Source of the DNA: Burkholderiales bacterium
Lineage (GTDB): Bacteria; Pseudomonadota; Gammaproteobacteria; Burkholderiales; Casimicrobiaceae
Direction of reading: 5' to 3'
Length of the DNA: 64,000 nucleotides
Assembly: GCA_905339295.1 (NCBI GenBank)
Contig: CAJPFI010000021.1
Location: forward strand, 124,001 to 188,000
Positions 19,730-28,035 of the stretch are shown piece by piece. Under the pieces are notes generated by a model that had not been told where the DNA came from, ran no database searches, and was given only the letters and a program-made list of their open reading frames with translations. The stretch's first letter is position 1. Every line of letters starts with the position of its first letter. Position numbers and translations under genes: made by a program.

Positions 19730-21052
19730 CTACCTCAGGAAATCCGGCGAAATGAGCCGCGGCAGGAACAGCGACACGTCGGGCCAGACGATCACCAGCA
19801 TCAGCACGCCGAACATCGGCATCAGCATGATCCCCACGTCCTTCAGCACCGTGTACATGCGCACGCCCGCGATCGAGCACGAGATCATCAGGCAAAGCCC
19901 GTACGGCGGCGTGACCAGCCCGAACGCGAGCGAGACGATGCCGATCATCGCGAAATGGATCGGGTCCATCCCCACGCTCCTGGTGAGCGGCTCGAGGATC
20001 GTCCCGACGATGATGATCGCCGGGATCGCGTCGAGGAAGCAGCCGACGACGAGGAACACCGCGGCGATGAAGAATCCGGTGGCGACGAGCCCCATCTCCC
20101 AGGACGCGACGCCGGCGAGCAGCGCCTTGGGAACCTGGTAATAGGCGAGCATCCATCCGAAGGCCGACGCGGTCCCGACGCAGAACAGCGCGATCCCGGC
20201 AAGCCTGCCGGTATCGAGCAGCGCCGTGTGCAATCCCTTGAGGTTCATCTCGCGGTAGACGAAGGTCGACAACGCCGCCGCGTAGAGCACCGCGATGCAC
20301 GCCGACTCGGTCGCCGTGAACCATCCGAAGATCTTGCCGCCGATGATGATGACCGGCGTCATCAGTGCCGGCACCGAGACGGCCAGCGAGCCGACGACCT
20401 CGCGCGCCGTCGAGCGCGCGTAGGTCGGGTAGCCGCGCATCTTGGCGTAGGCGTGCACGGTGCCCATCTGCACGAGCCCGATCAGGAGCCCCGGGACGAT
20501 GCCGGCCAGGAAGAGGCCGCCGATCGACACGGTGAGCAGCCCGCCCCACACGATCATCAGGATCGACGGGGGGACGATCACCGCGAGCACCGAGGATACC
20601 GCCGTGATCGCCACCGAGAAGCTGTCGTCGTAGCCTTCCTTGCGCTGCGCCTCGATGAACAGCTTCGACTGGCTCGCGGCGTCGGCGGTCGACGATCCCG
20701 AGATGCCGGCGAAGAAGATCGAGAGCACGACGTTGACCTGCGCGAGCCCGCCCGGGAAGTGGCCGACGAGCGACCGCGACAGGCGCACCAGCCGGTCGGT
20801 GATGCCGCCGACGTTCATCAGGTTCGCGGTGAGCAGGAAGAAAGGTACGGCGAGGAGGATGAACGAGTTGTACGCGTTGAACGTCTCCTGCACGAGCGTG
20901 GTCGGCGACAGCCGGTCCTCGAGCACGAGCACCGGCAGACAGGCGAGTCCCAGCGCGAAGGCGATCGGCACGCGCAGGATCATCAGCGAGAAGAACAGCC
21001 CGAACAGCACGAGGCTCGCCTCGGCCGGCGTGAACAGCGCGCCGCCGGTCAT
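19730..21052 (-). CDS. dctM: TRAP transporter large permease (DctM)
   Basis: A 440-residue membrane protein with about 12 hydrophobic segments and the DctM signatures GISGSSTADAA and IVPPSILMIVWG. It forms the Na+-driven permease with the DctQ subunit and receives substrate from the DctP receptor. ATG at 21052 overlaps the stop of the preceding 39-codon ORF (ATGA), with GGAGAGG as the ribosome-binding site inside that ORF. Normally dctQ and dctM adjoin or are fused; here two small ORFs lie between them. Confidence 0.95.
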   Translation of the reverse strand: MTGGALFTPAEASLVLFGLFFSLMILRVPIAFALGLACLPVLVLEDRLSPTTLVQETFNAYNSFILLAVPFFLLTANLMNVGGITDRLVRLSRSLVGHFPGGLAQVNVVLSIFFAGISGSSTADAASQSKLFIEAQRKEGYDDSFSVAITAVSSVLAVIVPPSILMIVWGGLLTVSIGGLFLAGIVPGLLIGLVQMGTVHAYAKMRGYPTYARSTAREVVGSLAVSVPALMTPVIIIGGKIFGWFTATESACIAVLYAAALSTFVYREMNLKGLHTALLDTGRLAGIALFCVGTASAFGWMLAYYQVPKALLAGVASWEMGLVATGFFIAAVFLVVGCFLDAIPAIIIVGTILEPLTRSVGMDPIHFAMIGIVSLAFGLVTPPYGLCLMISCSIAGVRMYTVLKDVGIMLMPMFGVLMLVIVWPDVSLFLPRLISPDFLR

Positions 21053-21168
21053 CGCGCCGCCTCTCCGAGCGGTTCCCCGGGACGAGGCGCCCGCGCGTCG
21101 GCGGCCAGCGCGCACTCGCCCTCGTCGATCCCCGTGCTTCGCACGGGGCCCCTCGCCGTGGGGCTCAT
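21049..21168 (-). CDS. Coupled 39-codon sORF, second copy
   Basis: Encodes a 39-residue peptide starting MSPTARGPVRSTGIDEG and ending EAAR. Its ATG overlaps the stop of the first copy and its TGA overlaps the dctM start, both as ATGA. It differs from the first copy at only a few residues (RPGEPLGEAAR versus HPGERLKEAAR). The peptide is hydrophilic with one Cys and no membrane segment. It may be a real peptide or a translated spacer that couples dctQ to dctM translation. A stable hairpin (CCCCGTGC, GAA loop, GCACGGGG on the coding strand) lies inside it. Confidence 0.5.
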   Translation of the reverse strand: MSPTARGPVRSTGIDEGECALAADARAPRPGEPLGEAAR

Positions 21169-21282
21169 CGCGCCGCCTCCTTGAGCCGCTCCCCGGGATG
21201 AGGCGCCCGCGCGTCGGCGGCCAGCGCGCATTCGCCCTCGTCGATCCCCGTGCTTCGCACGGGGCCCCTCGCCGTGGGGCTC
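21051..21282. repeat. 116-base tandem duplication between dctQ and dctM
   Basis: Two head-to-tail copies (21051-21166 and 21167-21282) differ at about seven positions by eye, roughly 94 percent identity. Each copy contains one 8-base-pair hairpin with a three-base loop and one 39-codon ORF. The period of 116 equals 120 coding bases minus the four-base overlap. Confidence 0.93.
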
Positions 21283-21284
21283 AT
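21165..21284 (-). CDS. Coupled 39-codon sORF, first copy
   Basis: Encodes the first copy of the 39-residue peptide (MSPTARGPVRSTGIDEG through ERLKEAAR). The ATG overlaps the dctQ stop by four bases, and a perfect AAGGAGG near its end serves the next ORF at seven-base spacing. That both copies keep an open frame, the ribosome-binding site and exact four-base overlaps suggests selection for translation. However, a 116-base duplication of an ORF that already had these features would produce the same arrangement, so selection is not proven. Confidence 0.5.
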   Translation of the reverse strand: MSPTARGPVRSTGIDEGECALAADARAPHPGERLKEAAR

Positions 21285-21811
21285 CGCGCTCCCCCGCCCA
21301 CGCGCCACCGCCCGGTGGCGATGCGGAGATCGTCGAGGAAGCGCTCGCCGCCGAACACGATCCACGTGAGGCCGGCCAGCGGCCAGGCGACGTGGATCAT
21401 CCACAGCGGCAGCTCGGCGAGCTCGGAGATCCGGTAGCGTGCGTCGATCGTGAATTCCCATCCGAACCACAGGAACACGATCGCCAGCGCGAGCACGCCC
21501 GCGCCCGCGAACAGCCGGAGCAGCGCCTGCCCCCGCACCGAGAGCTTCGGCCACAGGTCGACCTCGAAGTGCGTCCCCTCGCGTATGCCGACCATCGCGC
21601 CGAGCATGATCGCCCAGACGAACATCAGCCGGGCCATCTCCTCGGTCCAGATGAATGTCGGGATGAAGGTCGTGAAGCGGGCGAAGATCTGCAGCGTCAC
21701 CGGCACGATCAGGATCGCGACGGTGGCCACGAGCAGCCACGACAGCAGGCGCGCGTAGGCGGCGGTGAAGCGGCGCCAGCCGCGGCGGACGGGGGATGCG
21801 GGGGAAGTCAC
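21281..21811 (-). CDS. dctQ: TRAP transporter small permease (DctQ)
   Basis: A 176-residue protein with four hydrophobic segments and the DctQ signature FIPTFIWTEEMARLMFVWAI. It is the small integral subunit that pairs with DctM. ATG at 21811; its TGA overlaps the ATG of the first 39-codon ORF. A GC-rich stem-loop separates it from the upstream receptor gene dctP. Confidence 0.93.
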   Translation of the reverse strand: MTSPASPVRRGWRRFTAAYARLLSWLLVATVAILIVPVTLQIFARFTTFIPTFIWTEEMARLMFVWAIMLGAMVGIREGTHFEVDLWPKLSVRGQALLRLFAGAGVLALAIVFLWFGWEFTIDARYRISELAELPLWMIHVAWPLAGLTWIVFGGERFLDDLRIATGRWRVGGGAR

Positions 21812-24109: not shown

Positions 24110-27100
24110 TCACGCGTCGTTCCCTGCGATTGCGCGATCGATCACGCCCCGGATCACCGCCGCGAACCGTTCGCCCCCCTCCTCGAGCACGAGCGTGATG
24201 TGATCGCCGGGCAGGACATGCAGCTCCATGCTCGACGCGAGGCCCTCCCATTCGTCGTCGTGGGCCGACGCGCTGCTTTCCCCGGAGCGGACGACGACCA
24301 GGTGGACGCCCGCGCGCCGGCCGCGATAGCCGCGCATCGCCCGATGCAGGCGATGCGCGAGGTCGCTCACGCGATCGGTTGGCGGCGGGACGCCGGGCGC
24401 GGCGAGCGTCGCGGCAGCACGCGGATCCCCGGGCGCGATGGCGGACGCCGCGCTCGGCGCCGCGGCATCGACCACGATCACGGCAGGCACTTCCTCGCCC
24501 TCGGCAAGCAGCAGGCGCGCCAGCTCGAACGCCACGAACGCGCCGTTGCAATGACCACCGACGACGTAGGGTCCGTGCGGTCGCAGCGCCCGCAATGCCC
24601 GGAGACGCTCGCCCGCCATCGCCTCGATCGTCGTCGGGACCGAACCGCCTGCGAGTCCGTGCGGATGAACGACGTAGACCGGCTGGTCCGGTCCGAGCAG
24701 GCGCGCCAGCACATGGCAATGGAATCCGCCTCCGAAGAAGTCGCCGTGCACGTAGACGAACGGCAGGCGCGATCCGCCTTCGTGCAACGGGACGACCTCC
24801 GCGTGGGCGGCGAGCGCCCCCTCGCGGATCGCGTTCGCGACGCCGGCGACCGTGTCGTCGACGAACATCGCCGTGAGCGGCACGCGGATCCCCGTCTCGC
24901 GCTCGTAGTCGTCGGCCATGCGGGCCGCCAGCAGCGAGTGCCCGCCCAGGTCGAAGAAGTGATCGAAGACGCCGAGGCCCGCCTTCCCGAGCGTCGCCTC
25001 CCAGTGACGGACGAGATCCTGCTCGAGCGGATCGCGGGGCGCGACGCGGATGCCCGCGTTCGCCGCCGGCGAAACGTCGACCGGGGGAAGCGACCTGCGG
25101 TCGACCTTGCCGCTCGCGTTGAGCGGCAGCGCCGGCAGCCAGGCGACGGCCGACGGCACCATCACGGCAGGCAGCAACTTGCGCAACTCGCGCGTCAGGT
25201 TGGCCGGCGGAGGCGCGCGCGGATCCGACGCGACCGCGTACGCGACGATGCGGCGCGTGTCGCTCGTGTCGCCATCCACGACCGCGACCGCCTCGCGCAC
25301 GCCAGGCACGCGCGCGATCGCGGCCTCGACGTCGCCGAGCTCGATGCGATGGCCGCGGACCTTGACCTGCCCGTCCGTGCGGCCGAGAAACTCGATCGCG
25401 CCGTCGTCGCGGACGCGCGCCCGGTCGCCGCTCCGGTAGAGGCGGCGTGGCGGCAGGTCGCCGACGCGCGCTTCCACGAATCGCGCCGCGTCGCGATCCG
25501 ACGCGCCGAGATACCGCAGCGCGAGACCTGCACCTCCGATGCAGATCTCCCCCGGTTCGCCCGGGGCGGCCGGCGCGCCGTCCGAGCGAAGCACGTAGAC
25601 CTCTGCGTTCGCGATCGCCCGGCCGATCGGCACGGTCGAGGCGTTCTCCCGCACCGCGCGCGCCTCGTGCCACGTCGCGAACGTCGTCGTCTCGGTGGGG
25701 CCGTAGACGTGCAGCAGGCGGCTCGGCGGGTTCGCGCGCAGCACGTCGGCGACGCGGCGCGGCTCGGCCGCCTCGCCTCCGAACAGCACGGTGCGGCACG
25801 GCCCGAAGGCGGCGGGCGCCTCGCGCGCGATCGCATTGAACAGCGCGGTCGTGACGAAGAGCGTCGTGATCCGCTCGTGCGCGATCGCGGCGGCAAGGGC
25901 GCGCGGCGCGATCGCCGTCGCCTTCGGGACCGGCGCGAGCCGAGCGCCGTTGAGCAGCGCCCCCCAGAACTCGAACGTGGACGCGTCGAACGCGGGATTC
26001 GCGAGCTGCGCGACCACATCGTCCGGGCCGAGCAGCACGTAGTCGGTGCCGCACACCAGGCGCACGACCGCCTCGTGCGGAACGACCACGCCCTTCGGTC
26101 GCCCGCTCGACCCCGACGTGCCGATCACGTAGGCCGGATCGCGAGGCCGGGGCGCTCCCGGCGGCGCGACGGCGGCATGCGCGGCAATCCTCTCCGACTC
26201 CCGCTCCGGCCGCACGACGTCGACGCCCGGGCGCGCGAACCGCGTCGCCATCGCCTCGTCCGCGATCGCGTGCGCGACCCGCGCGTCGTCGAGCATGTGC
26301 GCGAGTCGTTCGGCGGGCAGCTCCGGATCGATCGGCATGTACGCGGCGCCGGCCTTCAGCACCGCGAGCCAGGCGGTCGCGATGTCCGCCGTCGCGGCGC
26401 GTGCCACGGCGACGAACGCTCCGGGGGCCACCCCTCGCGCACGCAGCTCCGCGGCGAGCCGGTTGGCGGCGGCGTCGAGCCGCGCGTAGTCGAGCGTGCC
26501 GATCGCGATCGCCGACGGCGTCGCCGCCGCCTGCGCTTCGAAGCGTGCGGTGATCGTGGGCTCGCGGGGCGGCCCGGTGACCGGACCGGCCGACGCCGCC
26601 ACGATCCGGCGCCGGATCGCATCGTCCATCATCGGCAGCGAGGCGACCGGCCGGCCGGGCTCGCGCGCCATCGCCTCGACCAGCGCCGCGTACTGATGCG
26701 CCATGCGCTCGATCGTCGCGCGCTCGAACAGGTCGGTGCAGTATCCCCAGTACGTCTCGATGCCGTCGCCGCCGTCGAGCAGCGTGAGGGCAAGGTCGAA
26801 GCGCGCGTGCCCGAGACCAAGCTCCTGGCGGCGGACCGTGCAGCCGGCCAGTTCGAGGTCGCCCAGCGCGCGCTTGCGCATGCCGAAGGCGACCTGGAAC
26901 AGCGGGTTGCGCGAGGCGTCGCGCGGCAGGCCAAGCGCGTCGACCAGCCGCTCGAACGGCACCTGCTGCGCCTCGATCGCCGCACGCGTCGCGGCATGCA
27001 TGCGCCGTACCGCCTCCATCGCCGACGGCGCGCCGGACAGGTCGACACGACACGCGACCGTGTTGGCGAAGAACCCGACGACCTGCGCGAGCTCGGGCAA

Positions 27101-27961
27101 CGGCCGCGCGGCCACCGGCATGCCGATCACGAGATCCGTGTCGCCGGAAAGTCGCGACAGCAGCACGGCGTACACCGCGAGGAACGAAACGTACGAAGTG
27201 GCTCCGGCGTCGCGCCCCGCCGCCCGCCACGCGGCGACCGCATCCGGGGCGAGGCGCGCGCGAACGAGGTCGCCTCGAAAGCTCTGCGTTGCCGGCCGGC
27301 GGAAGTCGGTCGGAAGCGCGAGCGTCGGCGCGTTGGCGAGGCGGGCCCGGCAGTCGTCGAGACGCTTCGCGGCTTCCGGTCCGGCGAGATCGTGCGCCAG
27401 GTGCGCCGAGTACGTCAGGTAATCGAGCGGAAGCGAGGGCAGCTCGACGGGCGCGCCCGCCAGCGCCGCGGCGTACGCGCGCGACAGGTCGTCGTTCAGC
27501 GCCCGCCCGGACAGCGCGTCGCCGAGAATGTGATGCCAGACGCGGACGAGCGCATGGCGATCGTGCTCGAGCCTGAACAGCGCCCATCGGATCGGCGTCG
27601 CCGCCGCGAGATCGAACGGCTGCATTGCGCGCTCGCGCGCAGCCGCCTCGAGCGTGCGCTCGCCGCCGTCCCCGCACGCCGGCAGGTCGACGCATTCGAG
27701 CACCGTGCGCGCCGCATCGTCGACCGCCTGGCAGGGCACGCCGTTGATCGTCGGGAAGCGCGTGCGGAGCATGGGCTGGCGAACCGCCACCGCGTCGAGT
27801 GCCGCGCGCAGTGCGCCGACGTCGATCGCCCCGTCGATGTGCCACAGCGCCGCCTCGTTGTAGGCGGCGCTCGACGGGTCGAGGCGCTGCAGGAACCAGA
27901 CGCGCGCCTGGCAATGCGAGAGCGCGGCCGGTTCCGCATGCCTGGCCATTCCTTCATCCAT
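24110..27961 (-). CDS. Single-module non-ribosomal peptide synthetase (C-A-T-TE)
   Basis: About 1283 residues holding one complete module. A condensation domain (about 10-430) has HHxxxD at His143-His144 and Asp148, reading HHILGDA so the usual Gly after Asp is Ala. The adenylation domain (about 460-950) has the core TSGSSGRPKGV, YGPTETT and the hinge YRSGDRARVRDDG. The carrier domain has LGGHSLL, and the C-terminal alpha/beta hydrolase thioesterase has GGHCNGA, so a Cys replaces the nucleophile Ser. My by-eye specificity positions read D-A-F-L-L-G-V-T-F-K, resembling branched-aliphatic (Ile/Val) codes. ATG at 27961 is one of three nearby in-frame ATGs. No tailoring genes or phosphopantetheinyl transferase are close by. 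Confidence 0.88.
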   Translation of the reverse strand: MDEGMARHAEPAALSHCQARVWFLQRLDPSSAAYNEAALWHIDGAIDVGALRAALDAVAVRQPMLRTRFPTINGVPCQAVDDAARTVLECVDLPACGDGGERTLEAAARERAMQPFDLAAATPIRWALFRLEHDRHALVRVWHHILGDALSGRALNDDLSRAYAAALAGAPVELPSLPLDYLTYSAHLAHDLAGPEAAKRLDDCRARLANAPTLALPTDFRRPATQSFRGDLVRARLAPDAVAAWRAAGRDAGATSYVSFLAVYAVLLSRLSGDTDLVIGMPVAARPLPELAQVVGFFANTVACRVDLSGAPSAMEAVRRMHAATRAAIEAQQVPFERLVDALGLPRDASRNPLFQVAFGMRKRALGDLELAGCTVRRQELGLGHARFDLALTLLDGGDGIETYWGYCTDLFERATIERMAHQYAALVEAMAREPGRPVASLPMMDDAIRRRIVAASAGPVTGPPREPTITARFEAQAAATPSAIAIGTLDYARLDAAANRLAAELRARGVAPGAFVAVARAATADIATAWLAVLKAGAAYMPIDPELPAERLAHMLDDARVAHAIADEAMATRFARPGVDVVRPERESERIAAHAAVAPPGAPRPRDPAYVIGTSGSSGRPKGVVVPHEAVVRLVCGTDYVLLGPDDVVAQLANPAFDASTFEFWGALLNGARLAPVPKATAIAPRALAAAIAHERITTLFVTTALFNAIAREAPAAFGPCRTVLFGGEAAEPRRVADVLRANPPSRLLHVYGPTETTTFATWHEARAVRENASTVPIGRAIANAEVYVLRSDGAPAAPGEPGEICIGGAGLALRYLGASDRDAARFVEARVGDLPPRRLYRSGDRARVRDDGAIEFLGRTDGQVKVRGHRIELGDVEAAIARVPGVREAVAVVDGDTSDTRRIVAYAVASDPRAPPPANLTRELRKLLPAVMVPSAVAWLPALPLNASGKVDRRSLPPVDVSPAANAGIRVAPRDPLEQDLVRHWEATLGKAGLGVFDHFFDLGGHSLLAARMADDYERETGIRVPLTAMFVDDTVAGVANAIREGALAAHAEVVPLHEGGSRLPFVYVHGDFFGGGFHCHVLARLLGPDQPVYVVHPHGLAGGSVPTTIEAMAGERLRALRALRPHGPYVVGGHCNGAFVAFELARLLLAEGEEVPAVIVVDAAAPSAASAIAPGDPRAAATLAAPGVPPPTDRVSDLAHRLHRAMRGYRGRRAGVHLVVVRSGESSASAHDDEWEGLASSMELHVLPGDHITLVLEEGGERFAAVIRGVIDRAIAGNDA

Positions 27962-28035
27962 GTCGCCTATGCTATCGGCTTCCGGCACGGGGACGAAACG
28001 CGGCGCGCGTCACGCGAGCCGCCGCCATCGGGACC

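Follow-up and report, generated by a model that had tools for sequence, protein, structure and literature searches.

A dispersed repeat anchored at stop codons as a putative ribosome relay between dctQ and dctM in a Burkholderiales genome

What are the two small reading frames that lie between dctQ and dctM in a TRAP permease operon of this Burkholderiales bacterium? The window, the whole stretch of 64,000 nucleotides that was analysed, carries the operon on the minus strand in the order dctP, dctQ, sORF1, sORF2, dctM (Table 1). The identities of DctP, DctQ and DctM are confirmed by Pfam; the sORF has no match to a Pfam family. Among the 19 comparable co-directional gaps in the window, the one between dctQ and dctM is the only one that is bridged. 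Elsewhere on the minus strand, at 24110-27988, there is a 1292-aa ORF that by eye resembles a non-ribosomal peptide synthetase of one module, comprising condensation, adenylation, carrier and thioesterase parts.

The preliminary description reported a 116-base unit in two tandem copies with about seven differences, each copy holding one 39-codon ORF and one 8-bp hairpin, and this is what is found. The unit is exactly 116 nt long, the copies differ at 7 positions per 120 nt, both 39-codon frames are intact, and the hairpins (an 8-bp stem with a 3-nt loop) are the same in both copies. The junctions are exact 4-nt ATGA overlaps as described, but there are three of them (dctQ/sORF1, sORF1/sORF2 and sORF2/dctM) and not four, and the middle one is there because the unit is duplicated in tandem. 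A strong ribosome-binding site had been ascribed to the end of each sORF; copy 1 does end in a perfect AAGGAGG shortly 5' of the sORF2 ATG, but copy 2 has only the weaker GGAGAGG. Five codons differ between sORF1 and sORF2, two of them synonymously and three non-synonymously (H29R, R33P and the 3-nt change K35G). Folding of the 120-nt units as wholes is no better than that of shuffled sequence (z = 0.66 and -0.70). In total, the insertion between dctQ and dctM amounts to 232 nt.

Table 1. Features of the dctQ-dctM region, in window coordinates.
Feature	Position	Strand	Remarks
dctQ, small TRAP permease subunit	21281..21811	-	Pfam PF04290, E=3.8e-27; its TGA stop overlaps the sORF1 ATG
ATGA overlap, dctQ stop / sORF1 start	21281..21284	-	
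Repeat copy 1 = sORF1, 39 codons, MSPTARGPVRSTGIDEGECALAADARAPHPGERLKEAAR	21165..21284	-	
Hairpin 1, CCCCGTGC-GAA-GCACGGGG	21246..21264	-	Stem covaries among dispersed copies
AAGGAGG, Shine-Dalgarno motif for sORF2	21176..21182	-	Conserved AAGGAGGCCG, 3' end of the repeat family
ATGA overlap, sORF1 stop / sORF2 start	21165..21168	-	
Repeat copy 2 = sORF2, 39 codons, MSPTARGPVRSTGIDEGECALAADARAPRPGEPLGEAAR	21049..21168	-	
Hairpin 2, identical to hairpin 1	21130..21148	-	
GGAGAGG, altered Shine-Dalgarno motif ahead of dctM	21060..21066	-	
ATGA overlap, sORF2 stop / dctM start	21049..21052	-	
dctM, large TRAP permease subunit	19730..21052	-	Pfam PF06808, E=7.4e-95

In most related operons this junction is empty. 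In eighty-odd cases, nearly all of about 90 relatives of DctM (55-85% identity), dctQ and dctM overlap directly by a plain ATGA or TGATG, including an 85% identical relative from Lake Baikal (L096) and a 78% identical relative of the same genus (L037). Absence of the unit from close relatives with a plain overlap, together with a lack of ribosome occupancy, had been put forward as a sign of chance duplication; the unit is indeed absent there, but for a repeat that was inserted that conclusion does not follow. Besides the window, six dctQ-dctM loci bear inserts, of 12, 43, 8, 12, 30 and 21 codons, whose peptides are mostly unrelated. All seven bridged loci are open and have 4-nt RTGA overlaps at both ends, and their ATG-to-start distances (116 twice, 35, 128, 23, 35, 89 and 62) are all 2 mod 3. 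The 43-codon insert, from genome G008, is a dispersed repeat of that genome itself, and the 21-codon insert (L157) is a member of a second repeat family, matched 52 times in genome G025. A search of 149 relatives for homologues of the sORF peptide gave only weak, low-complexity-like matches outside the window. In Microvirga massiliensis (Alphaproteobacteria; L125), an unrelated 30-codon ORF bridges dctQ and dctM, with ATGA on both sides.

The unit belongs to a repeat family that is dispersed over the source genome. By pattern search, the core GGCGAGGGGCCC-N-GGGATCGACG has 14 exact copies there, two of them within the window, and the reversed-pattern control of this core has none; BLAST against the same genome gives seven shorter matches besides those of the window, and the genome-wide counts rest on these two kinds of search. 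The unit consists of about 15 variable bases, a hairpin segment (GGCGAGGGGCCCCG hairpin CGGGGATCGACG), GGCCGAC-N- and AAGGAGGCCG; in many copies a partial second unit comes next. The stem sequence varies among copies, and paired changes keep the pairing. Of the copies away from the TRAP operon, nine have upstream DNA that can be read, and in all nine the repeat starts right on the in-frame TAG that ends an unrelated gene; these genes encode, among others, a PilQ-like secretin, a CorA-like transporter, a YraN-like protein and response regulators (named by eye from their translations). These TAG-anchored copies do not have the form of a small ORF with 4-nt overlaps, and it is among them, and not among operon bridges, that the nearest source-genome relatives of the dctQ-dctM copy are found. 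The unit has no match in Rfam at E<=5, and a search of the literature found no description of these repeats. Near-identical units sit at contig ends (L023, L028, L030, L031, L034, L250, L254 and L286), and because of this, draft assemblies give too low a copy number.

Relatives of the unit are present across the genus and family. The pattern GGCCGAC-N(25-55)-AAGGAGGCCG occurs 24 times in genome G002, 17 in G009, 15 in G029, 12 in G047, 11 in G008 and 10 in G000, and is numerous within the family only; its scattered matches at the level of the order look like chance occurrences in coding sequence. There are two subtypes. One starts with TAGC and has the AGGGGCCCC hairpin. The other starts with RTGAGC, has GGCCCGAAGGGCGCG and ends in AAGGAGGCCGAGG directly ahead of the next gene's ATG, and 10 of 11 TGA-anchored copies lie upstream of a co-directional gene. 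The 3'-terminal AAGGAGG of the repeat is strongly conserved. The copy between dctQ and dctM is a hybrid, with the hairpin of the TAGC subtype and the operon position of the RTGAGC subtype. Chained mini-ORFs in tandem are also found elsewhere, with a period of 110 in G019 (L289) and of 77 in G025.

Some further arrangements were seen in these genomes. At three loci of G002 (L248, L256 and L260), copies in the opposite orientation lie just 5' of minus-strand genes, with CATGTCAGTG or a similar sequence at their 5' edge, which on the other strand reads as a start codon. A second dispersed repeat (ATGAGCGCGCCGGGCCGYCCCAAGCGCGAA...), the one with 52 matches in G025, was found at loci L188-L216 of that genome and at L187, L190 and L192 of G149. 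Its arrays with a period of 60 lengthen the N-terminus of the next gene in frame, and those with a period of 77 form chains of ATGA-coupled mini-ORFs. In the source genome it occurs outside the window (L331 from 1501 onward; C21:91358), where the tandem array makes up one 85-codon ORF starting at ATGA. Order-wide, the second repeat type (RTGAGCGCNCCGGGCCGNYCCAAG) is found in 2 of 150 genomes, so that its exact form is narrow in distribution.

There are 14 copies of the TGA type between unrelated operon genes, with stop-to-start distances of 104-137 nt that are 2 mod 3 in 14 of 14 cases; these copies are related to each other and not fully independent, and the frames of the genes were inferred from codon usage, not from annotation. 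Thirteen of them are open, the exception (L179) having one internal TAG. Stops are thus present in this frame in 1 of the 14, and in the other two frames in 14 and 8. Most overlap their neighbours by 4 nt, with TGATG or TAATG instead in a few. As a control, co-directional gaps of 45-260 nt that follow an RTGA stop were collected. Where the repeat core is present, 26 of 29 are bridged (and 2 more are frame extensions), versus 9 of 33 where it is absent. The 26 correspond to about 21 distinct loci, and many repeat loci were fetched by patterns starting with TGAGC, which raises the proportion of RTGA stops without affecting how well the frames agree. Among repeat copies, differences are spread evenly over the three codon positions (.275/.258/.302). 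From the sequences, it is the reading frame that is kept and not the peptide, and there is no sign that the amino acids matter.

These observations bear directly on what the sORFs are for. The preliminary description had suggested an accessory peptide of the TRAP permease, and a functional peptide, whether of this kind or a more general one, would fit the intact frames of both sORFs and their good start codons and ribosome-binding signals. The idea is not supported by the rest of the data: the DNA is a dispersed repeat that also lies beside unrelated genes, most DctM relatives have no insert, the sORF is without a Pfam match, other bridged TRAP operons have mostly unrelated peptides, and in G008 a different frame runs through the AAGGAGGCCG end. 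The comparison of synonymous and non-synonymous change, proposed as a way of detecting selection on the peptide, likewise gave no sign of its conservation, neither between the two copies, with non-synonymous change in three of the five differing codons, nor among repeat copies, where differences do not favour third codon positions. We regard a functional peptide as extremely improbable. Chance is another reading, in which a G+C-rich insertion would be open by luck and owe its ATGA overlaps to duplication of the site. At about 70% G+C, a 39-codon frame is by our own estimate open roughly half of the time, so an open frame of this length is not rare by itself, and the middle junction comes with the tandem duplication itself. 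The argument against chance is drawn instead from the comparative data, as the distance is 2 mod 3 in all seven bridged dctQ-dctM loci and in all 14 other repeats, nearly all of them open, and bridging is much commoner in gaps with the repeat than in those without. Luck is a very unlikely explanation of such a pattern.

A regulatory role deserves somewhat more weight, though we still consider it unlikely. Here, unwinding of the hairpin, the efficiency of reinitiation or processing of the mRNA would set the ratio of DctM to DctQ, and the copies would be kept for adjusting expression. Paired changes do preserve the stems among copies, the AAGGAGG is conserved at the 3' end, and tandem copies recur in G019 (L289) and G025. 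However, whole units fold no better than shuffles, most relatives have no insert at all between dctQ and dctM, the repeats adjoin genes of unrelated function, and conservation of the stem may serve dispersal and not expression.

The explanation that we find likely is that MIRU-like repeats (named after the mycobacterial elements discussed below) have inserted where a stop and a start codon overlap and that the cell tolerates them because they carry the ribosome across, the two sORFs being a tandem pair of them. A dispersed, family-specific repeat would have entered the overlapping stop/start site of dctQ and dctM, with a stop codon as its 5' end and a Shine-Dalgarno motif as its 3' end. Operon copies have an open frame that overlaps the preceding stop codon with its start and the following start codon with its stop, so that a ribosome finishing dctQ could restart at sORF1, then at sORF2 and then at dctM. 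Overlaps of the ATGA/TGATG type couple translation by termination-reinitiation, as shown in E. coli and in Haloferax volcanii, and a Shine-Dalgarno motif often assists (PMC6728339), and untranslated stretches of an operon invite Rho (PMC12548453); both coupling and protection from Rho may thus outlast the insertion. A plain insert of 232 nt should uncouple dctM, but one with its own coupled frame need not, from which we infer that a repeat lasts in an operon if it passes the ribosome on. The repeats would be mobile and spread to stop/start sites, selection would act through coupling or polarity, and the peptide would be a by-product, the reading frame being what is retained. The suggestion of a translated spacer, also made in the preliminary description, is borne out to this extent: the inserts, here and at other operon junctions, differ in sequence and keep the frame and the stop/start overlap.

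A wider proposal is more tentative, and we would put it at slightly less than an even chance. The repeats may represent an undescribed class of mobile repeats in Burkholderiales, anchored at stop codons, in which the 5' end is the stop of the host gene (TAG or RTGA) and the 3' end a ready Shine-Dalgarno motif, and which at coupled junctions become a translated relay. Such a class would have arisen independently of the mycobacterial MIRUs, and its mover would recognise stop codons or sites of translation termination. How a repeat is brought to stop codons with such precision becomes a question in its own right. If the reading is right, mini-ORFs between operon genes, annotated or overlooked, may be relays and not peptides, and inserts that vary in length and sequence may offer a natural series for testing termination-reinitiation and polarity.

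Several known systems share some of these features. REP/BIME and other RAYT-associated extragenic palindromic repeats are likewise dispersed and hairpin-bearing, with tandem and mosaic copies that often lie beside stop codons, but they are untranslated spacers, whereas the operon copies here look like translated bridges. Membership in the REP/RAYT group is not supported. A RAYT transposase was considered as the mover and rejected: none of 30 Y1_Tnp (RAYT-type) loci in the relatives and the source genome has a repeat copy within 1.5 kb, and the single RAYT of the source genome has another repeat, GGGGTCAGAGCC, at its flanks. This Y1/RAYT-type transposase (L035, C44:11656-11982) also has AACAAT alongside. 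Rickettsia palindromic elements sit within genes, whose proteins come to include them; they resemble the present repeats in persisting by keeping a reading frame, but the latter are intergenic and form ORFs of their own. Termination-reinitiation coupling at ATGA/TGATG (PMC6728339) involves overlaps of the kind seen here at either end, with the difference that the partner here is an inserted repeat and that coupling would run serially via one or two mini-ORFs.

The most extensive likeness is to the mycobacterial MIRUs, an example of which lies between senX3 and regX3. Supply is said to have noted in 1997 that tandem copies of MIRUs occur, and to have proposed their insertion at DTGA coupling sites. 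Both are short repeats present at many loci (here 14 core copies in the source genome and many in relatives), both have a small ORF that overlaps its neighbours by 4 nt (here at the window locus and in most of the 14 operon copies), and in both, insertion would be at a pre-existing overlapping stop/start (DTGA) site, as is shown here by the empty dctQ-dctM sites. However, the host is a member of Burkholderiales and not a mycobacterium, an 8-bp covarying hairpin is present here and MIRUs are described as being without dyad symmetry, and many copies here are TAG-anchored without a coupled gene, with AAGGAGG at the 3' end. MIRUs have been characterised as apparently mobile short repeats inserted at start codons, with an internal ORF coupled to the adjacent gene by a -4 overlap that probably limits harm (PMC12548453). 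Compared by description, they are the closest known system; the present family appears to work like a MIRU and is not classed as one, which suggests that the MIRU way of life, in which repeats survive within operons via a coupled frame of their own, is not confined to mycobacteria.
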